Shown in pieces: positions 1 through 15,715 of a DNA stretch of 17,893 nucleotides (position 1 is its first letter; each line of letters begins with the position of its first letter). A program made the translations under genes and the position numbers. The stretch is taken from NCBI GenBank assembly GCA_013696965.1, contig JACCXN010000080.1, positions 1 through 17,893 on the forward strand. Direction: 5' to 3'. The notes beneath the pieces are model-generated. The model did not search any database. It saw nothing but the letters and a program-made list of their open reading frames with translations, and was not told where the DNA came from. This DNA comes from Bacteroidota bacterium. GTDB lineage: Bacteria; Bacteroidota; Bacteroidia; JACCXN01.

Positions 1-878
1 GTCTTCACTTCGTTCAATTAAGAGATGCGTATTTTGATCTTTTTCTAGATAATAACAAAGAGTTCCGGTTTAGGGTAGGCCAAAGTAAAGTGCCGTATGG
101 GTTTGAAAACCTTCAATCCAGCCAAAACAGGCTTCCATTAGATCGTCATGACGCTTTAAACAGCGCTGTTGCAAATGAACGTGATCTTGGAGTATTCTTT
201 TATTATACTCCAAAGCATATCCGTGAAAGATTTAAGGAGCTTGTCAGTTCGGGATTAAAAGGATCGGGAGATTATGGAGTACTTGGATTAGGTATCCACA
301 ATGGACAAACTGCAAATAGGCCAGAAGCAAATAATTCTTCACATTATGTTTACAGGTTAACCTATCCTTTTGTACTTAATAACGGACAATTTATTGAAGC
401 AAGCGTGCAAGGATATCATGGTAATGTGGTTATAAACCGTTCGCAAACAAATGGAGCAGTAAATGAGTTTTTTGAAAGAAGAGTAGCCGGAACCTTTGTT
501 TTTTATCCTCAGCCTCTTGGATTTCAAGCTGAATTTACAATGGGCAAGGGCCCCGAATTTAATCCAGTAACTATGAATGTGGAAAACCAGGACTTATATG
601 GAGGTTACGCACAAACCATGTACATGCTAAAAGCAGGCAAACAGCTAATTATACCCTTTGCAAGATGGCACTATTATAAAGGGGGTAAAAAACAAGAAAT
701 AGATGCCAGAAGGTACCTTGTAAATGAACAGGAAATTGGAATAGAATGGCAACCATTTCCAGCATTTGAATTAGTTGCCATGTACACAATGTCTGACAGG
801 ACTTTTGAAGATTTCAAAAACCCAAACAACAGGCAAAGAGGAAACCTTTTAAGGCTTCAGGCACAATTTAATTTTTAG
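1..878 (+). CDS. Phosphate-selective porin O/P family protein (5'-truncated)
   Basis: C-terminal part of an outer-membrane beta-barrel porin of the OprO/OprP (Porin_O_P) family, which passes phosphate or polyphosphate. The frame is open from the first complete codon (base 3), so the start lies outside the window; the GTG at 90 is internal. The segment RVGQSKVPYGFENLQSS, followed by NRLPLDR, is typical of the family, as are alternating polar/aromatic strands and turn-rich loops. The last residues, LRLQAQFNF, end in a C-terminal phenylalanine, the usual recognition signal for the barrel assembly machinery. It lies 105 bp upstream of pstS on the same strand, so it probably feeds phosphate to the Pst importer. 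The family is clear; substrate preference is inferred from the neighbourhood. About 290 residues are visible and the N-terminal signal peptide is not. Confidence 0.9.
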   Translation, partial: LHFVQLRDAYFDLFLDNNKEFRFRVGQSKVPYGFENLQSSQNRLPLDRHDALNSAVANERDLGVFFYYTPKHIRERFKELVSSGLKGSGDYGVLGLGIHNGQTANRPEANNSSHYVYRLTYPFVLNNGQFIEASVQGYHGNVVINRSQTNGAVNEFFERRVAGTFVFYPQPLGFQAEFTMGKGPEFNPVTMNVENQDLYGGYAQTMYMLKAGKQLIIPFARWHYYKGGKKQEIDARRYLVNEQEIGIEWQPFPAFELVAMYTMSDRTFEDFKNPNNRQRGNLLRLQAQFNF

Positions 879-883
879 CACAG

Positions 884-916
884 TTAACCTTATGGTAACA
901 TCAGGTTAACATTCAA
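884..916 (+). promoter_or_regulatory. Candidate Pho box: three 11-bp direct repeats before pstS
   Basis: Three TTAAC-like units start at 884 (TTAACC), 895 (GTAACA) and 906 (TTAACA), spaced exactly 11 bp. PhoB/PhoP-type regulators bind tandem sites with 11-bp periodicity, and the Bacillus PhoP core is TTAACA-like. The third unit occupies the place where a -33 element would be relative to the TAnnTTTG at 932, as expected for an activator replacing that contact. The outer parts also form an 8-bp inverted repeat (883-890 GTTAACCT, 903-910 AGGTTAAC). The assignment is an inference from pattern and position. Confidence 0.6.
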
Positions 917-931
917 ATAAAATGACACCTA

Positions 932-939
932 TACTTTTG
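932..939 (+). promoter_or_regulatory. pstS promoter, -7 element
   Basis: TACTTTTG matches the Bacteroidota sigma-A -7 consensus TAnnTTTG. It lies 45 nt before the pstS ATG. No TTTG-type -33 element is seen; the candidate Pho box is there instead, which fits an activator-dependent promoter. Confidence 0.6.
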
Positions 940-983
940 CATAAAAATAAATTAAAAAGTAACATTTAATAACATATAAAAAA

Positions 984-2012
984 ATGAAAATAAAATCAAT
1001 AGTAATAGCCATCGGAATATCTGCATTAATTGCAGGCTGTGGCACAAATAACAACAACGAAGTAAATTCTGAATCAAAACTTAAAGGAGATATAAAAATA
1101 GATGGTTCAAGCACAGTTTATCCTCTCACAGAAGCTGTTGCAGAAGAATTCAGAACAGTACAACCTGATATTAAAATTACTGTTGGTGTTTCAGGAACTG
1201 GTGGCGGATTTAAAAAATTCAGCCGGGGCGAAACAGATATCAGTAATGCATCAAGACTTATTAAAGAATCAGAAATTCAGGCTTGCAAAGAAAATGGAAT
1301 AGAGTTTATAGAAATCCCTGTTGCTTATGATGGATTAGCTGTTGTAATTAGTAAGGAAAACACTTGGGTTGATTTTCTAACTGTTGAAGAACTTAAAAAA
1401 ATATGGGAACCATCTGCTCAGGGAAAGATTATGAAATGGAGCCAAATAAGAGCTGGTTGGCCTGATAGTGAAATTCATCTTTATGGACCTGGGGTAGCTT
1501 CAGGTACTTATGATTATTTTACTGAAGCCATTATGGGCAAGGCCCAGTCAAGCAGGGGCGATTATACTGCAAGCGAAGACGATAACGTGCTTGTACAAGG
1601 CGTTTCAACCGATAAGCTGGCACTTGGTTTTTTTGGACTTGCATATTTTACTGAGAACAGCGACAAATTAAAACTGGTTCCAATTGATGACTTAAATGAC
1701 GAAAATGGTTCTGGCCCGATAACTCCTACAATTGAAACTGTTGAGAACGGCACTTACCAACCTCTTGCCAGGCCCGAATTTATTTATGTAAATGCAAAAT
1801 CTGCAGAACGTGAAGAAGTAAAGGCATTCATTAATTTTTATCTTGAAAATGCTGCTGCACTTGCAAAAGAAACTGGTGCAATTGCACTTCCAAAAGAAGT
1901 TTATGCTGAGGCTTTGAAAAGATACGAGGAAAAAATTGTTGGTTCTGTTTTTGACAAAGAAGGAGGAAGTGTTGGAGTTAATTTGCTGCAGGTACTTAAA
2001 AAACGTCCATAA
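984..2012 (+). CDS. pstS: PstS, phosphate ABC transporter substrate-binding lipoprotein
   Basis: Periplasmic phosphate-binding protein that delivers Pi to the PstCAB importer. Residues 1-18 are a lipoprotein signal peptide with lipobox LIAGC and acylated Cys19, so it is probably membrane-anchored. Family motifs are all present: [18 protein letters not shown] (39-56, phosphate-binding loop), the [20 protein letters not shown] stretch (71-90) with the Arg/Asp pair that contacts Pi, [12 protein letters not shown] (168-179) and [10 protein letters not shown] (213-222). The length, 342 aa, is normal. The ATG at 984 follows an A-rich leader and gives a complete signal peptide. It is first in the pst cluster and is separated from pstC by a hairpin. 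Expression is probably induced by phosphate limitation through the repeats at 884-916. Confidence 0.96.
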
Positions 2013-2028
2013 AGGGACAAGGCTTTCT

Positions 2029-2061
2029 AAAAAAGCACAGGTATAAAACCCTGCTTTTTTT
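2029..2061 (+). terminator. Stem-loop with U-tract between pstS and pstC (attenuator candidate)
   Basis: AAAAAAGCA (2029-2037) pairs with TGCTTTTTT (2052-2060), with an inner GG/CC pair beyond a two-base bulge and an A-rich loop, and runs into a T-tract. It begins 17 nt after the pstS stop and lies within the pst operon. It looks like a partial terminator that lets most transcripts end after pstS, or a structure that stabilises the pstS mRNA end. The GC content of the stem is low, so read-through is likely. Confidence 0.55.
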
Positions 2062-2081
2062 ATAGATTTAATAAATCAGGT

Positions 2082-2957
2082 ATGAATTTGAAGGAAAAAA
2101 TAATTGAAAAACTGCTCTTTGCCTGTAGCCTTTTAACCATACTCACTACGCTTGGCATCATAGTGGTATTGCTGTATGAATCTATATTGTTTTTTAAAGA
2201 AGTTCCCATTTTTGATTTCTTAACAGATACTGAATGGACACCTCTTTTTGAACAAAAAAGATTTGGAATTCTTCCTTTAATAAGTGGAACACTATTAACT
2301 TCTCTTATTGCAATAGTTGTTGCAGTGCCTGTTGGACTTACTATTGCTGTTTATTTAAATGAATATGCAAACCAAAAGCTAACAGTTGCAATAAAACCTG
2401 TTTTGGAAATACTTGCTGCAGTTCCTACTGTGGTTTATGGCTTTTTTGCCCTTACATTTGTTACTCCTTTGTTGCAAAAATTAATTCCCGGACTGGCTGG
2501 TTTTAATGCGCTTTCTCCGGGAATTGTTATGGGAATAATGATAATTCCATATATTTCTTCATTGAGTGAAGATGCACTCAGGGCTGTTCCAAAATCATTA
2601 AGGGAAGCCGCCTACGGAATGGGTTCCACAAGACTGCAAACAGCATTTAAAGTAATGATCCCTGCTGCTTTTTCTGGAATTGCTGTTTCGGTGATTCTTG
2701 CCATTTCCAGGGCAATAGGTGAAACAATGATTGTAGCAATTGCAGCAGGTCAGCAGCCAAGATTAACATTTAACCCAATGGTGCCAATTGAAACCATAAC
2801 TACCTATATTGTTCAGGTAAGCCTTGGGGACGTTCCTCATGATTCATTAGAGTACCGAACTATTTTCGCTGCGGGAATTACTTTATTTATCTTAACTTTT
2901 ATTCTAAACAACATTAGTTTTTGGGTTAAAAGCAAATTCCAGGAAAAATATGAATAA
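2082..2957 (+). CDS. pstC: PstC, phosphate ABC transporter permease
   Basis: Inner-membrane permease subunit of the PstSCAB importer, pairing with PstA to form the translocation path. At 291 aa it is of normal size. Hydrophobic segments lie at about 10-35, 64-92, 108-130, 145-160, 196-222 and 259-282. The BPD_transp_1 cytoplasmic EAA loop is seen at about 163-196 ([19 protein letters not shown]), where the PstB ATPase docks. The order of genes and the conserved segment [17 protein letters not shown] (207-223), typical of PstC, separate it from PstA. Its stop codon overlaps the pstA start by 8 nt (ATGAATAA), so the two are probably translationally coupled. Confidence 0.95.
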
Positions 2958-3810
2958 GGCTGAAAAAACAAATCGTTTAAAAGATAAAGCATTTAATCTT
3001 TTTGGAATATTTTGCACTTTTTTTGGCTTGCTAATCCTTATAGTGCTTTTATTTGATGTGTTTTCAAAAGGAGGCAGTCGTATAAGCTGGGATTTTATTA
3101 CTGGCCTGCCATCACGTATTCCTGAAAAAGCAGGAATATTAACTCCATTAATCGGATCGATATGGATACTTATTTTAACTGCCGTTATAGCGTTTCCAAT
3201 AGGGGTTGCGGCAGCCATTCACCTGGAGGAATACGGCAGCAAAAACAGGCTCAGCAAACTGGTGGAAATAAATATTGCAAACCTTGCAGGGGTGCCTTCA
3301 ATTATTTATGGCTTACTTGGTTTACAAGTATTTTCGCGTTGGGTTCATTTGGGCTCAAGTCTTTTAGCAGGAGCTTTAACGCTTGCCCTTTTGATTTTAC
3401 CTATTATTATTGTGGCTACAAGAGAAGCCATTAAAGCTGTTCCAAATTCTATTCGGGAAGCTTCTTATGCACTGGGCGGATCAAGATGGCAAACTATCTG
3501 GATGCAGGTATTGCCAGCATCAATGGGTGGAATATTAACGGGAGTAATTTTGGCATTATCCAGAGCAGTTGGGGAAACAGCGCCACTTATTGTAATTGGT
3601 GCACTTACTTATGTTGCTTTTGTTCCTTCTGGGCCTTTAGATGAATTCTCTGTGCTTCCTATACAGGTTTTTAATTGGATAAGCAGGCCCCAGCATGGAT
3701 TTGTAATAAATGCAGCTGCGGGAATTATTGTACTTTTAGCCATTACTTTTATTATGAATGGCATAGCTGTTTATTTTAGAAACAAATGGCAGAAAAAAAT
3801 TAAATGGTAA
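2950..3810 (+). CDS. pstA: PstA, phosphate ABC transporter permease
   Basis: Second membrane permease of the Pst importer, 286 aa. Hydrophobic helices occur at about 16-38, 64-91, 108-125, 136-156, 188-222 and 252-276. The EAA loop is at about 159-192 ([19 protein letters not shown]), and [18 protein letters not shown] (201-218) is a PstA hallmark. The start overlaps the pstC stop by 8 nt; the exact length match to PstA proteins and this overlap support the ATG at 2950. It works with PstC as a heterodimer energised by PstB. Nothing unusual is seen. Confidence 0.95.
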
Positions 3811-3826
3811 TATCAAAATAGTATAT

Positions 3827-4594
3827 ATGTTAACCCCAAAAACGAATAAACTTGAAACCAAAAATCTTAATGTTTTTTATGGCGAAAGCCAGGTTCTAAA
3901 AGATATTAATATGGTTATAAAGCCAAACACGGTTACCGCTTTAATTGGGCCATCGGGTTGTGGTAAATCTACCTTTTTAAGGTTATTCAACAGAATGAAT
4001 GACTACATAGAAATTTTTCGAAAAGAAGGAGAAATATTGATTGACGGAACAGAGATATACAGCAAAAAAACAAGTGTAGTTGAGCTTAGAAAAAAAGTAG
4101 GCATGGTATTTCAAAAACCCAATCCTTTTCCAAAAAACATTTATGAAAACGTTGTGTATGGTTTAAGAATACAGGGAATAAAAGATAAAACAATATTGGA
4201 TAATGCGGTTGAAAAATCATTAAAACAGGCTGCTTTATGGGAAGAGGTGAAAGATAATCTTAAAAAATCTGCTCTTTCTTTATCTGGCGGACAGCAGCAA
4301 AGGCTTTGTATTGCAAGAGCCTTGGCTGTTGAGCCCACTGTAATACTTATGGATGAACCTACCTCTGCACTTGATCCTATTTCATCTGCAAAAGTTGAAG
4401 AATTAATCTATGAATTAAAGCAAAAATACACTATAGTAATTGTTACCCACAATATGCAACAGGCAGGAAGGGTAAGCGATTACACGGCTTTTTTCTATTT
4501 GGGTGATTTAATTGAATATGGAAAAACAAAAGATATTTTCACCAATCCAAAACAAATAAAAACTCAGAATTACATTACCGGTAGGTTTGGTTGA
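3827..4594 (+). CDS. pstB: PstB, phosphate ABC transporter ATP-binding protein
   Basis: Cytoplasmic ATPase of the phosphate importer, 255 aa, which is typical. All nucleotide-binding motifs are intact: Walker [10 protein letters not shown] (41-49), Q-loop at Gln96 in [11 protein letters not shown] signature LSGGQQQR (152-159), Walker B VILMDEP (172-178) with catalytic Glu177, D-loop SALD (180-183) and H-loop His208. The NRMND segment and the FQKPNPFP motif are PstB-specific features within the ABC family. It lies 16 nt after pstA on the same strand and is co-transcribed with it. Confidence 0.97.
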
Positions 4595-4660
4595 TGTTAT
4601 TAAAATTGAGAAAAGAGATCTATCAATTAAAACCTTAACAATAAATAATACCAAAGAAAC

Positions 4661-5317
4661 ATGACACATCTTGATACAGAACTTCATTATTTAAAAGAAG
4701 ATTTGATAAAAATGACCAGAATGGTGAGGTCTCAAATTTCTAAAGGAAAAAATTCCATATTTGATTTTGATAAGGACCTGGCAAAAGAAATACTTTTTAC
4801 CGAAAAAAGAATAAATGCTTTTGAATTAAAAATAGACCGTGATTGTGAAAAAATTTTCGCCTTGTATAATCCCTTAGCAGCTGATTTGCGTTTTGTGCTT
4901 GCCGCATTAAAAATTAATTCAAACCTGGAACGCATTGCAGATAATGCAGAGAGCGTAGCTCATTATGTAATGGATGTAAAAACACCATTTTCAGTTGAAG
5001 TTCTTGAAAAGTACAATTTAACTAAAATGTATGAAGTAGCTCTTGCTATGCTTGATGATAGCCTAGATGCTTTGATTAATGAAGACACCGAACTTGCAAG
5101 AAAAGTTTTTATAAAAGACGATATCCTGGATGAAATTAACTTGGCTGCAATAAAAACCACCCTTGCTTTGATTGAAAACAATCATCCTGATCCTTTACAT
5201 TACCTTTCCGTTTTATCCGTAATTAGAAAAATAGAAAGAATGGGCGACCAGTCCAAAAACATTGCTGAAGAAATTATTTTTTACATTGAAGCAAAAGTGT
5301 TAAAACATCGCACTTAA
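4661..5317 (+). CDS. phoU: PhoU, phosphate signalling / transport regulator
   Basis: Cytoplasmic all-helical regulator that couples PstSCAB activity to the PhoR/PhoB two-component system and restrains phosphate uptake. At 218 aa it holds the two tandem PhoU repeats, each with a metal-binding ExxxD motif: LERIADNAE (Glu90, Asp94) and IERMGDQSKNIAEE (Glu192, Asp196). It is last in the pst cluster, 66 nt after pstB, and that gap carries no obvious terminator. No phoB or phoR is seen in the window, so the partner sensor must lie elsewhere. The next gene faces it from the opposite strand. Confidence 0.94.
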   Translation: MTHLDTELHYLKEDLIKMTRMVRSQISKGKNSIFDFDKDLAKEILFTEKRINAFELKIDRDCEKIFALYNPLAADLRFVLAALKINSNLERIADNAESVAHYVMDVKTPFSVEVLEKYNLTKMYEVALAMLDDSLDALINEDTELARKVFIKDDILDEINLAAIKTTLALIENNHPDPLHYLSVLSVIRKIERMGDQSKNIAEEIIFYIEAKVLKHRT

Positions 5318-6413: not shown

Positions 6414-7453
6414 ATGAAACTTCTGATAAACCTGGTTTTACTTCTTCTAATCACACAGAAAATCAATTCTCAAACACTTATTGCTCAGGCAAAACCAATG
6501 GGTGGGAAATTATGGGGATATATTGATATAACAGGCAATTTGGTTATACCTGCTAAATATGCCACCTGTTATGAATTTACCGAGGATGGTTTTGCAGCAA
6601 TTTATGAGGCAAAACAATATCATTTTATAAATAAAAAAGGCGAAAAAATAATTACTGAATTAAGTGGATTTAAACTTATAGATGGGTTTGGAATTAATCT
6701 AAAAGGCTATAACAATGGACTAGCTCCTGTTAAGATAGGAACATCATGGGGTTATATGGATGTTCAGGGCAAGGAATCTATAAAGCCTTCTTATGATAAA
6801 GTATCGGAATTTAATGGTGGTTATGCAGTGGCAAGCAGAGGCGAGAAGAAATTTGTTCTGGATTTAAAAGGAAATGAAATTCCGGTAACAGACACTAAAG
6901 TTTTTGCTTTAAAACATTTCTCTGAAGGCCTAGCGCCTTTTGATGGCCAGGATAAAAAAAATGGCTTTATTGACATAAGTGGAAAAGTAGTTATTGAACC
7001 TGATTTTATGAGTGTAGGATATTTTGTAAATGACTTAGCATGGGCTAAAACCACTGAACTTACAGTGGGTTATATCAACAAAAAAGGAGAATGGGTAATA
7101 AAGCCGCAGTTTACTGCAGCTAAAGATTTTGATGCTCAAAGCGGAATGGCCCGGGTTAAAATTGCAGAAACATGGGCCTATATAGACAAAACAGAAAGGT
7201 TTTGAATATGCAAATAGAAAAATATGGTGATTTTAGCGAAGGATTATGCGAAGGAAGAAAGAATACCCTTTTTGGTTTTTTTGACAAAAATGGAAATTGG
7301 GTAATAGAGCCACAGTTTGAAAATGTTCGCAATTTTAAAAATGGCTATGCGGCAGCAAAACAGGGTGGGAAATGGGGAATGATTGATCCTTCAGGAAAAT
7401 GGATCATTCAGCCAAAATTCGCTGCAATCAAAGACATGGAACTGGCAAAATAA
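6414..7453 (+). pseudogene. WG-repeat protein, split by a single-base frameshift
   Basis: Exported protein made of WG (KWG) repeats, a Bacteroidota-rich family of mostly unknown function. Residues 1-19 are a signal peptide (MKLLINLVLLLLI, ending NSQ). About seven repeats of the pattern WGYID..G..VI.P.Y/F follow, such as LWGYIDITGNLVIPAKY and TVGYINKKGEWVIKPQF. The first frame stops at 7205, after AYIDKTERF. The repeat pattern then continues in another frame, to the TAA at 7453, with LFGFFDKNGNWVIEPQF and KWGMIDPSGKWIIQPKF. Restoring one G near 7194 turns ACAGAAAGG into ACAGGAAAGG and gives AYIDKTGKVL, a perfect repeat. The coding segments are therefore 6414-7205 and about 7195-7453, which would make one protein of about 346 aa. 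Either the gene is freshly broken or the base was lost in sequencing. Confidence 0.85.
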
Positions 7454-8984: not shown

Positions 8985-9761
8985 ATGAAGAATAAAGAGA
9001 AGATAAAAAGATATCGATGGCTTATTAAATTAAGCAAGAGAACAGAAATTCCTTTAATAGTTCTTGGATTTGCCTGGATAATTTTACTTGTGGTAGATTT
9101 AATCTGGCAACTTACTCCTGTTTTACAATACATAGTATCTGCAATTTGGATAATTTTTATTTTTGATTTCCTGATAAAGTTTTTTTTAGCCCCAATTAAG
9201 TGGCTATTTCTTAAAAAGAATGTACTGACAATTATTTCCCTATTTATACCAGCTTTAAGAGTATTCCGAATTTTTGCAAGTCTTAGTTTGTTAAGATCAA
9301 TTGGTGTTATTAGAAGTATTCATGTAATTAGGATTATTGGCTCAGTTAATAGGGGAATGCGAGCACTTGGAAGAACCCTTGAACGCAGGGCTTTTGGCTA
9401 TGTGCTGATACTTACTTTAATGGTTTGCTTTGTTGGAGCTGCGGCAGTGTTTGCTTTTGAAAGGGAAACAGGAGCTTTTAATAATTACTGGGATGCATTA
9501 TGGTGGACAGCAATGCTTTTGACTACAATTGCCAGTGAAAATTGGCCGCAAACACCAGAGGGGAAAACGGTAACACTTTTGCTGGGTTTATACAGTCTTG
9601 GAGTTTTAGGTTATTTAACTGCCATGCTTGCCTCTTTTTTCATTGGACAGGATGCAACAGACAAAAAAGGAGAAATTGCTGGTGCATTACAGTTAGAAGA
9701 AATAACAAAAGAAATGAGACTTTTAAGAAAAGAGATTGAAAAATTAAATAAACAGGAATAG
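8985..9761 (+). CDS. Voltage-gated-like ion channel with noncanonical pore filter
   Basis: Inner-membrane six-helix cation channel subunit of the ion_trans superfamily, 258 aa. S1 is about 22-41, S2 47-68 and S3 79-91. S4 is about 92-118, with Arg at 92, 95, 104, 110 and 116 and His113, all on a three-residue register as in a voltage sensor. S5 is about 137-158, a pore helix covers 168-181, and S6 is 195-221. Residues 226-257 form a charged, probably coiled-coil tail. The pore sequence is LLTTIASENWPQTPEGK (178-194). The flanks match K+ channels (TT and the P.TPEGK turn), but the TVGYGD filter is replaced by TIASEN. Selectivity therefore cannot be assumed to be for potassium. The ATG at 8985 follows an AT-rich leader. 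It stands alone and faces the next gene convergently. Confidence 0.85.
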   Translation: MKNKEKIKRYRWLIKLSKRTEIPLIVLGFAWIILLVVDLIWQLTPVLQYIVSAIWIIFIFDFLIKFFLAPIKWLFLKKNVLTIISLFIPALRVFRIFASLSLLRSIGVIRSIHVIRIIGSVNRGMRALGRTLERRAFGYVLILTLMVCFVGAAAVFAFERETGAFNNYWDALWWTAMLLTTIASENWPQTPEGKTVTLLLGLYSLGVLGYLTAMLASFFIGQDATDKKGEIAGALQLEEITKEMRLLRKEIEKLNKQE

Positions 9762-12484: not shown

Positions 12485-13195
12485 TCATTCTTTTTTTCTG
12501 AAATCAATGTTATAAAAAATCGCTGCCTGTAAATAGTGTTTTGTAGTTGTGTTTACTGTTTGAGCAAGGTATCCTATCTGAATGTTTGCATTTGGGATAA
12601 ATTGATAGCCAATTGCTCCGTACAAACGGTTTCTATCGAATGGCGGGGATGAAAAATGAATAAATACTTCATCATATAAGCTCAGAAATAAGGTGTTTTT
12701 TTCTATTTTTTGTTTATTCAGAGGTACAGTTATCCTAAGTAAATATCTTATTCTGTTCAGGTATTGGATATTGTCATTTGTCTGCTTCCATCGCTGCTCA
12801 AGGCGATAGCGGTGTTCAAAAATAAACCTTCCTAAATTGTTACGCATAAGAAACTGTTGCCAAATTCTATTTTCGGAACTATGGGGACTTTCCATCAACT
12901 CATCATTGTCAGTATAACTATTTACACGGGCATATCCTGCCGATAAACTGGATGAAGATTGCAAATGAAAATTTATTCCACTCCTGAGTAGAATCTGTTC
13001 TGCTTCATCAAAAATCCCATAGTCTCGGTATTGAGCCTCTGTATGAATACTCCATTTATCGTGCAGGCGAAGTTGTCCGAAAAACATGGTCCAGTTTCCG
13101 GTTTTGTTAGATGATGATTGAGAAAATGCAGAAACATTTATCAAAAATAAAAAAAGGCAAAGTGCATGTGTTAATTTATTTAAATGTTTATTCAT
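12485..13195 (-). CDS. DUF2490 family outer-membrane protein
   Basis: Probable outer-membrane beta-barrel of the DUF2490 family, 236 aa. Residues 1-26 are a signal peptide ending at FSQ. The mature part has alternating strands typical of the family: WTMFFGQLRLHDKWSIHTEAQ near the N-terminus, FIFEHRYRLEQRW in the middle, and RNRLYGAIGYQF and IQIGYLAQ toward the C-terminus. The gene starts inside the carbonic anhydrase stop region, overlapping it by 8 nt (ATGAATAA), so the two are co-translated. In this setting it might pass or bind small anions, but that is inference; DUF2490 has no settled function. Confidence 0.75.
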   Translation of the reverse strand: MNKHLNKLTHALCLFLFLINVSAFSQSSSNKTGNWTMFFGQLRLHDKWSIHTEAQYRDYGIFDEAEQILLRSGINFHLQSSSSLSAGYARVNSYTDNDELMESPHSSENRIWQQFLMRNNLGRFIFEHRYRLEQRWKQTNDNIQYLNRIRYLLRITVPLNKQKIEKNTLFLSLYDEVFIHFSSPPFDRNRLYGAIGYQFIPNANIQIGYLAQTVNTTTKHYLQAAIFYNIDFRKKE

Positions 13196-13847
13196 TTACC
13201 CATTGCGAAATTGCACTCATTGTTTCAGTATAAAATATTACCTCACCTGTTGAAATATCATGCGTGCCACCAACAATTCCTATTTGTCCGTTTTCAATCA
13301 TTTCTTTTAAAATCGGGCTTCGTTCCATAATATTTTTAACGGTTAGTTTTACATTAATAGTTGCTACCTTTTCTACAAAATCAGCATTGCCGGAATTCCG
13401 ATTGTTTTCCACCGTCTTTTCCTCCTCAACGGCAGGTCTTATTTTAGCCAACAATGCAGTTAAGTTGCCCATTTCCACATGGTCGCAAGCGCCTTTTACC
13501 GCACCACATTTTGTATGACCTAACACAACAATGATTTTAGCACCTGCCACTTTACAGCCAAATTCCATGCTACCCAAAATATCTTCGTTGATAATGTTTC
13601 CGGCAATACGAACACTAAACACATCTCCTAGTCCCTGGTCAAATATCAATTCAGCAGAGGTTCTGCTGTCAATACAACTTAGAATTACTGCAAAAGGATG
13701 TTGTCCATCTGATGTTTCATTTGCCTGTTGCAAAAGATTCCGGTTTACTTTAAGATTATTTACAAATCTTTTGTTTCCCTCCATTAATAAATTTAATGCC
13801 ATTGAAGGTGAAATAGCTGTTTGCATTTCTTTTGTTAGTGTTTTCAT
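13188..13847 (-). CDS. Beta-class carbonic anhydrase
   Basis: Zinc enzyme that interconverts CO2 and HCO3-. At 219 aa it is normal for the class. The zinc ligands are Cys58 (SCIDSR), His111 and Cys114 (GHTKCGAVKGA), with the catalytic Asp60/Arg62 dyad intact. The core VRIAGNIINEDILGSMEFG (79-97) is typical. There is no signal peptide, so it is cytoplasmic. It lies 28 nt after sulP and overlaps the DUF2490 gene, forming an operon. SulP-carbonic anhydrase pairs and fusions are a known arrangement for bicarbonate uptake and CO2 retention. The ATG at 13847 follows a long A-rich leader. Confidence 0.95.
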   Translation of the reverse strand: MKTLTKEMQTAISPSMALNLLMEGNKRFVNNLKVNRNLLQQANETSDGQHPFAVILSCIDSRTSAELIFDQGLGDVFSVRIAGNIINEDILGSMEFGCKVAGAKIIVVLGHTKCGAVKGACDHVEMGNLTALLAKIRPAVEEEKTVENNRNSGNADFVEKVATINVKLTVKNIMERSPILKEMIENGQIGIVGGTHDISTGEVIFYTETMSAISQWVNE

Positions 13848-13875
13848 TTTTTTTTGTTTTTTTTATGGTTAATAC

Positions 13876-15414
13876 TTAGTTTAAATTTATGCCCTTTACT
13901 TCAAGGGTTATTCCTATTGTTTTTGCGTGTATTTGAAAATTCTGAATGATTTCAATAACATCGTAGTGGATGGATTTTGATTTTGTTCCGTCAATAATAA
14001 CTTTTGAATTTGCCGGAATGTGGTTGAGCATTTGTAAAATGTTGCCTTTATTCAGAAATGAAACTTCTTCTGAAAGCACAATTAAATGCTCATGATTTGG
14101 ATGTTTTTCTTCCTTGGTATTGTAAAAAGGATTTCTGAAATTGTTACGCAGGATATAAAAAATTGCCACAGCCATTCCGATAGCAATTCCTTTTAAAAGG
14201 TCGGTTAAAAGTATTCCCACTATGGTTGCAATAAAAGGAACAAACTGTTCCCAACCTTGTTTATACACTTGCTTAAATAATGCTGGCTTTGCCAATTTAT
14301 ACCCAACCACAAAAAGAATTGAGGCAAGCGTAGCGAGTGGAATCATATTAAGAAGTGCTGGAATTGTTATTGCACTTATCAGTAAGAAGAAACCATGTAA
14401 AATAGCCGACACCTTGGTTTTGCCGCCAAATGTGATGTTTGCACTACTGCGAACAATAACCTGCGTAAGTGGTAATCCTCCAATAAGACCGGATATAATA
14501 TTACCAATGCCTTGTGCTTTTAATTCTCTGTTTGTTGGCGTGATTCTTTTATAAGGATCGAGTTTGTCGGTAGCTTCTACACAAAGCAAGGTTTCTAAAC
14601 TGGCAACTATAGCAATCACAACTGCTATAATATATACATCGGGGTTTTTCCATGCAGACAAATCAGGAAGAGTGAATTGTCTGAAAAATTCCCCTATACT
14701 TGATGCCACCGGAATTTGAACAATTTGTTTTTCCCCCAAACTAAAAGGGAGTAAATTATTTTGAAACAAATAGTTTAAAAGTATTCCTGCAAAAACTGCC
14801 ACAAGAGGCCCGTTAATCAAATTGAACACTTTATGTTTTTTCATCAGCACATAGTCCCAAAAAACAAGAATCAACAATGAGATTACTGTAACTAATACTG
14901 CCCCTGGTGTAATATAATTGAGCGTGTTGAATAGTGCAGAAAAGGTATTTTGTCCGTCAGGTTGGATAAAAGCAACATCGCCTTCAAAGTCGGTATCGTA
15001 ACCGAAGGCGTGTGGAATTTGCTTGAGAATAATAAGCAAGCCAATACCAGTTAGCATTCCTTTAATAACCGATGAAGGAAAATAATAGGCTATGGTTCCC
15101 AATTTCAAATAGCCCAATATTACCTGAATTACACCTGCTAAAACTACAGCAAGTAAAAATGCCTCCCATGAACCTCCAAGTGTAGCAATGGAACTTAGTA
15201 CAATTACTGCAAGTCCTGCTGCGGGACCGCTCACTCCCAATGGAGAGCCGCTTGCCTTACCCACAACAATACCACCAACAATACCTGCTATAATTCCTGC
15301 AAACAAAGGTGCTCCTGATGCAAGGGCAATTCCTAAACATAAAGGAACTGCAACAAAAAACACGACTATACTCGCTGGCAAATCGTTTTTGAGGTCTTTA
15401 AAGAGATTTTTCAT
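13876..15414 (-). CDS. SulP family anion transporter (probable bicarbonate transporter)
   Basis: Inner-membrane SLC26/SulP transporter, 512 aa from the ATG at 15414. That start is chosen because MKNLFKDLKNDLPASIVVFF is the typical SulP N-terminus and a TAnnTTTG element lies 24 nt upstream. The frame extends to 15555, but the extra 47 residues look non-coding. About 12 hydrophobic segments span residues 14-423, including the family segment LFAGIIAGIVGGIVVG (37-52) and GVSGPAAGLAVIV (60-72). Residues about 440-512 are a STAS domain (EHLIVLSEEVSFLNKGN, then KVIIDGTKSKSIHYDVIEII). The following gene is a carbonic anhydrase, so bicarbonate is the likeliest substrate, although sulfate cannot be excluded from sequence alone. 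Confidence 0.93.
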   Translation of the reverse strand: MKNLFKDLKNDLPASIVVFFVAVPLCLGIALASGAPLFAGIIAGIVGGIVVGKASGSPLGVSGPAAGLAVIVLSSIATLGGSWEAFLLAVVLAGVIQVILGYLKLGTIAYYFPSSVIKGMLTGIGLLIILKQIPHAFGYDTDFEGDVAFIQPDGQNTFSALFNTLNYITPGAVLVTVISLLILVFWDYVLMKKHKVFNLINGPLVAVFAGILLNYLFQNNLLPFSLGEKQIVQIPVASSIGEFFRQFTLPDLSAWKNPDVYIIAVVIAIVASLETLLCVEATDKLDPYKRITPTNRELKAQGIGNIISGLIGGLPLTQVIVRSSANITFGGKTKVSAILHGFFLLISAITIPALLNMIPLATLASILFVVGYKLAKPALFKQVYKQGWEQFVPFIATIVGILLTDLLKGIAIGMAVAIFYILRNNFRNPFYNTKEEKHPNHEHLIVLSEEVSFLNKGNILQMLNHIPANSKVIIDGTKSKSIHYDVIEIIQNFQIHAKTIGITLEVKGINLN

Positions 15415-15437
15415 AAAGTGATTATAATATTTCGAAA

Positions 15438-15445
15438 CAAAGGTA
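15438..15445 (-). promoter_or_regulatory. -7 element of the sulP operon
   Basis: Minus-strand TACCTTTG matches TAnnTTTG. It lies 24 nt before the ATG at 15414 and inside the longer frame, which supports the downstream start. Confidence 0.5.
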
Positions 15446-15715
15446 GTAATAATATTCAACAAAGTAGTATTGCTATCATTAAAAATACTTTTACAATTAA
15501 AAACGCTATTGCAAGTCGTTAATTGTTGGAGTTGTATTTTGGAAATATGCTGCAAAGGACCTGAATTTAACGATAAGAGAGTATTTTATGGGTTTAACTT
15601 AAAGACTAAAATTCTAAAAAAGAAGAACCAATATTCGATTTCAATCTTCAAGAGATTAAACAGTTTGCAGTTAATAATAATGTGAGTATAACAAGAAAAA
15701 CTTAAAAGAAAGACC

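Follow-up and report, generated by a model that had tools for sequence, protein, structure and literature searches.

A bacterial clade of minimal Kv-like channels with a selectivity filter shortened by one residue, apparently undescribed and probably not selective for K+

The locus described here raises the question of what a voltage-gated-like channel conducts once the potassium signature has gone from its pore. The window, meaning the whole stretch of 17,893 nucleotides that was analyzed, comes from a Bacteroidota bacterium and encodes a channel that reads TTIASENWP at the selectivity filter, with TIASEN at residues 181-186 (bases 9525-9542). An earlier note on this DNA had described a voltage-gated-like channel that had lost Gly-Tyr-Gly within 9519-9569, and both observations stand. 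The gene and its parts are as follows.

8985..9761, + strand: channel gene, 258 amino acids plus stop, six transmembrane segments, standing alone (open reading frame, Ion_trans and Ion_trans_2 matches, 34 intact orthologues)
9156..9167, + strand: S2 motif F58-x-x-D61, which we take to be the counterpart of the Kv charge-transfer center from KvAP and Kv1.2 alignments and established knowledge
9258..9332, + strand: S4 voltage-sensor region, residues 92-116, whose basic positions keep a three-residue phase throughout the 34 members
9501..9524, + strand: pore helix WWTAMLLT of K+-channel type, residues 173-180, aligning with KcsA WWSVETAT
9525..9548, + strand: shortened filter T-I-A-S-E-N-W-P, residues 181-188, eight residues from Thr/Ser to Pro as in all 34 members
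9678..9758, + strand: short, helix-prone cytoplasmic tail after S6, residues 232-258, from the sequence pattern in relatives

The window protein is a six-transmembrane member of the voltage-gated ion channel superfamily. In a Pfam scan it matches Ion_trans (E = 1.8e-10; 40.9 bits against a curated cut-off of 25) and Ion_trans_2 (E = 5.8e-6, over its cut-off), and among proteins of solved structure the closest in sequence is KvAP, an archaeal voltage-gated K+ channel (E = 4.5e-11, or 8.8e-17 when the family profile is the query). The superfamily trait of a basic residue at every third position of S4 is found in the window protein (R92, R95, R104, R110, and R116) and in its relatives, which carry more of them: columns 92, 95, 98, 101, 107, 110, 113, and 116 are basic in 53 to 97% of the 34 members. 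In S2, Phe occupies position 58 in 32 of 34 members and Asp or Glu position 61, likewise in 32, while Thr82 of the window protein presumably sits where Kv channels have the S3 Asp, judging from alignment and established knowledge. These patterns make a functional voltage sensor likely. Past S6, Ile and Leu follow a heptad-like spacing in relatives, from which a coiled coil in the tail is possible. An AlphaFold2 model built from six sequences, with no deep alignment (mean pLDDT 51, pTM 0.28), was set aside.

The pore loop of the window protein reads NNYWDALWWTAMLLTTIASENWPQTPEGK. The loss of Gly-Tyr-Gly is not a matter of an intact TVGYG lying elsewhere, as no GYG occurs in the whole 258-residue reading frame. 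In profile alignments, KcsA TVGYGDLYP pairs with TxG-SDYWP in the family and with TIA-SENWP in the window, a one-residue deletion; TTVGYGDLYPVT stands against TTxG-SDYWPxT, and KcsA and the sister channels give the same result. The earlier description of TIASEN "in place of" TVGYGD is thus right in that the filter has been replaced, but the exchange is not six residues for six. Retained from K+ channels are the WW pair of the pore helix (its second Trp and its Met are invariant across members), the filter Thr, the first Gly, the Asp80 position of KcsA as Asp or Glu, and Pro83. The Tyr78 position is deleted, Gly79 is replaced by Ser, and Tyr82 is replaced by Trp or Phe, with the assignment of the Ser to Tyr78 or Gly79 hinging on where the gap is placed. 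Among the 34 intact members, which span four phyla, every filter counts eight residues from Thr or Ser to Pro, and every one lacks GYG and the TxG[YF]G signature of Kv channels and KvAP. The family consensus is T-x-G-S-[DE]-[YF]-[WF]-P (first Gly in 32 of 34, Ser in 30, Asp/Glu in 33, Tyr/Phe in 32, Trp/Phe in 30, Pro in 34). TMGSEYWP (six members), TIGSDYFP (six), and TMGSDYFP (four) are commonest, and TIASDYWP, TAGNEFHP, and SLGPEHWP occur among the others. The window's TIASENWP is the most divergent filter in the family, sharing Ala at the first Gly position with L014 only (2/34) and being the sole member with Asn at the aromatic position (1/34).

Orthologues were found, through a species-genome scan and whole-genome and plasmid searches, in Bacteroidota (a Bacteroidales MAG at 67% identity, Niastella at 45%, and others), Cyanobacteriota (Scytonema, Calothrix, Nostoc, Kovacikia, and Gloeothece, and also the related Candidatus Obscuribacter), Pseudomonadota (Sinorhizobium plasmids), and Deinococcota (plasmids). 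As the species-genome scan was queried with the window protein alone and returned close relatives only, the phyla named here are a minimum. The close orthologues, at 67%, 49%, and 48% identity, all lack GYG, so that a canonical filter among them, which the earlier note had named as the mark of a sequence error, was not found. With the seed profile, full-length members score at least 267 bits and the best channel with another filter, which carries TVGYGD, scores 101; the interval holds nothing but pieces of broken members and a pore-less protein (L022). In a tree that also includes 20 channels from outside the family, a branch supported at 100/100 separates all 34 members from the rest, and it is kept with the filter columns and the long-branched L002 both left out. 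Because the support is the same without the filter columns, the grouping is independent of the filter motif. The nearest group comprises minimal Kv-like Bacteroidota channels with TVGYGDxYPVT; the program warned of long branches where the more distant channels join at depth, and our reading therefore uses the clade but leaves aside the precise root. The clade and the absence of GYG from all its members bear out the earlier suggestion of a separate branch that is probably not K+-selective.

Where it is measurable, the clade is under purifying selection, with dN/dS of 0.10-0.24 for unsaturated member pairs, a range that excludes the window itself because its pair with L014 is saturated at synonymous sites. 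The gene was present in 21 of 386 sampled cyanobacterial genomes (a few of these with broken copies), by clear membership in 2 of 395 sampled Bacteroidota, and in 4 of 248 and 3 of 198 genomes of two Bacteroidota orders; the two further genomes sampled from the family to which the window belongs, neither of them complete, did not yield it. The patchy distribution and plasmid carriage suggest horizontal spread. Public annotation lists members as "ion transporter" or "potassium channel family protein." The window's own genome also encodes a canonical TVGYGD channel (L020).

Several relatives were seen along the way. Broken copies of the channel gene occur at L049 (4959-5732), L066, L068, and L037, including one on 'Nostoc azollae' 0708 plasmid pAzo01, and in Candidatus Obscuribacter a second, broken copy adjoins the intact gene. 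L022 (301-1914, minus strand; genome G452:C4:105938-106318) encodes a 538-residue protein of which residues 4-130 match the family voltage-sensor domain (E = 3e-35). Its pore is absent, and the rest holds HQIGHLLGL, zincin-like by eye, and more hydrophobic segments; the protein gave no Pfam match at E 0.001. Outside the clade, three Bacteroidota channels have odd filters, each seen once: TILGMDYCSPP (L002, 1495-2148, minus strand), TTVSSYSPIMP (L041, 1126-2031, plus strand), and LTTLGGDVYP (L010, 625-1836, minus strand).

The genomic surroundings offer loose hints of function. Upstream of the window gene, a 221-residue protein with no Pfam match ends 520 bases away, and the downstream neighbor is convergent. 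Recurrent gene clusters around the channel were found in cyanobacteria only. There, the order DUF389 - channel - MscS - DUF2254 (L015, 4630-9315; L045, 3615-8138; L082, 6642-11175), partly present in L048, L049, and L084, suggests a membrane-stress operon. In another cyanobacterial subclade, the channel gene directly follows DnaJ-type and MerR-like genes in L042, L090, and L097 and lies two genes from them in L085, with a P-type ATPase in the flanks of this subclade. On a plasmid of Deinococcus sp. QL22, it has TrkH and a putative gene for K+ efflux nearby. The neighbors in cyanobacteria and Deinococcus sp. QL22 hint, loosely, at membrane and ion stress. A pst operon lies near the channel gene in the window and in L096; in the window it forms part of a phosphate-uptake cluster at 90-5317, in which a porin of the Porin_O_P type, cut off by the contig start, precedes pstS, two pst permeases, pstB, and phoU. 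The proximity is probably coincidental, because L014, the closest relative, has no pst operon in its flanks. Elsewhere in the window, a WG-repeat protein (6414-7453) is split by an apparent frameshift, with one frame ending in ETWAYIDKTERF near 7205 and a different one, at 7172-7453, carrying on the repeat, and a SulP-family transporter, a beta-type carbonic anhydrase (Pro_CA), and a DUF2490 protein stand consecutively at 12485-15555 on the minus strand, possibly a bicarbonate-uptake unit. No relative of the channel was found among the viral contigs searched, Rfam gave no match on the window, and a promoter and terminator scan around the channel gene returned site numbers similar to those in shuffled sequence.

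The family pore profile scores KcsA at 52 bits, KvAP at 36, NaK at 18.5, and CNGA1 at 12, the last two values not to be over-read since the NaK, CNGA1, and NavAb segments are shorter than those of KcsA and KvAP, which lowers the attainable score; these three segments were checked against PDB chains, with NaK differing at the first residue. Six segments, S4, a K+-type pore helix, and the filter Thr, first Gly, acid, and Pro are common to the clade and to the minimal Kv-like channels of prokaryotes, represented by KvAP and by Bacteroidota proteins of about 220-260 residues with TVGYGD, such as L003, L024, and L029. The clade differs from them in the deleted Tyr position, the replaced second Gly, and Trp or Phe at K+-channel Tyr82. 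Metazoan CNG channels (CNGA1, TIGETPPP) likewise have six transmembrane segments and an acid within a K+-channel-derived filter of eight residues from Thr to Pro. Unlike the clade, they carry a C-linker and cyclic-nucleotide-binding domain, for which the approximately 35 residues after S6 of the window protein gave no Pfam match, and their filter is Pro-rich with Glu one place earlier (E-T-P-P against S-D-Y-W in the clade). The Shaker filter minus Tyr-Gly is reportedly also CNG-like. NaK of Bacillus cereus (TVGDGNFSP) resembles the clade in its K+-type pore, which has lost the signature Tyr and gained an acidic residue, but it has two transmembrane segments and no voltage sensor, and its filter is one residue longer with the second Gly retained. 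Transplanting the CNG filter onto NaK produces a CNG-like pore (PMC6091977). NirBac channels are, like the clade, bacterial K+-channel relatives without TxGYG, and are demonstrably non-selective: NirBac1.1 and 1.2 form tetramers that conduct several monovalent cations (PMC4607889). They differ in being Kir-type proteins with two transmembrane segments and a Kir domain, which a Pfam scan did not match in the window protein, and in having rare, mutually unrelated filters, against one filter across phyla in the clade.

On this evidence we lean toward a voltage-sensing cation channel that would not be K+-selective and would probably be non-selective among monovalent cations, belonging to a conserved minimal Kv-like clade with a shorter, acidic filter. 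The pore is homologous to those of the Kv and KcsA type, the Tyr78 position has been deleted and the new filter conserved, S4 is regular, and selection is purifying. Pointing the same way are the uniform filter of all members, the fully supported clade, the S2 pattern, and the separate canonical channel, and, by analogy, the length of the CNGA1 filter and the NirBac and NaK-graft precedents. Set against it are the differing residues and acid placement in CNG filters, the divergence of the window's own filter, and its saturated selection ratio. Selectivity is not settled from sequence alone: HCN channels have a CIGYG filter yet pass Na+ (PMC7576140).

We propose that four subunits would assemble and that membrane voltage would move S4 and open a gate in S6. 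The shortened filter would lack the backbone cages of Tyr78 and Gly79, which form outer K+ sites in KcsA, and because these cages would be absent, dehydrated K+ would no longer be favored. Four Asp or Glu residues ringed near the outer mouth could draw cations in. The outcome would be a voltage-dependent conductance that is not K+-selective and is probably non-selective among monovalent cations, in a CNG- or NaK-like mode, perhaps serving Na+ entry, depolarization, or ion release during membrane stress.

There is some chance, although we consider it unlikely, that the acidic ring instead makes the pore Na+-selective or Ca2+-permeable, a functional parallel to bacterial sodium channels (BacNav) built from a K+-channel pore. 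Asp or Glu sits at the filter of nearly every member with aromatic residues behind it, and the Glu of CNG channels binds divalents. BacNav channels (NavAb and NaChBac; TLESW) share with the clade six transmembrane segments with S4 and an acid and Trp in the filter region, and the earlier note had likened SENW to their Glu-Ser-Trp. That comparison fails on alignment, in which Glu falls on KcsA Asp80, Trp on Tyr82, and Pro on Pro83; the flanks of the pore are of K+ type, and the window protein lacks the T-L-E-[SD]-W filter in an alignable pore that typifies BacNav. The NavAb pore segment gave no match to the family profile, even when filtering was disabled and E values up to 1000 were allowed, and we rejected a sodium-channel reading of the filter. 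Because NavAb is unmatched, the likeness is coincidental as to descent, although an acidic ring could act similarly. Against Ca2+ permeation, NirBac1.2, which also lacks GYG, is impermeable to Ca2+ (PMC4607889).

It is improbable that the pore does not conduct and that the protein is a voltage-dependent signaling or structural membrane protein, or conducts through its sensor. A GAGD-bearing K+ channel, cited in PMC2853561, is expressed without conducting, and L022 is a sensor relative without a pore; what the clade displays, however, is a precise new filter, not decay, kept in four phyla under purifying selection. We give little credence to a pore still selective for K+ through an unusual filter geometry: the K+-channel pore helix, first Gly, Asp position, and Pro83 are retained, but every member has lost the Tyr78 position and carries another residue for Gly79, and in the window the first Gly has also become Ala. 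Sequencing error or gene decay, for which the broken copies in a few genomes (L049, L066, and L068) might be invoked, is refuted by the intact frame, an intact orthologue that is 67% identical and has a filter of this type, and the other 32 intact members.

We think it fairly likely that these channels form an undescribed, horizontally spread bacterial voltage-gated clade, whose TxGS[DE][YF][WF]P filter would have arisen from a K+ channel by a one-residue deletion, independently of metazoan CNG channels, and whose pore would be non-selective or conduct Na+ or Ca2+. A search of the open-access literature found no description of the clade, which is weak evidence of absence, and it is apparently undescribed so far. 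Among eukaryotic Kv-like and CNBD channels, one survey found major departures from TVGY/FG to be confined to single channels, with metazoan CNG (TIGE) as the sole clade-wide exception (PMC7576140). Searching by canonical motif, through which SynK of cyanobacteria was discovered (PMC2853561), would by design overlook a clade without GYG. With a filter shortened by one residue in bacteria, a regular S4, and no ligand-binding domain, the clade offers a natural experiment in the loss of K+ selectivity, and the small size of the protein (about 260 residues) makes it convenient for reconstitution. Should the channel conduct Na+, it would represent a second route to a voltage-triggered depolarizing current in bacteria, unrelated to BacNav, and would bear on what bacterial voltage-gated channels are for.
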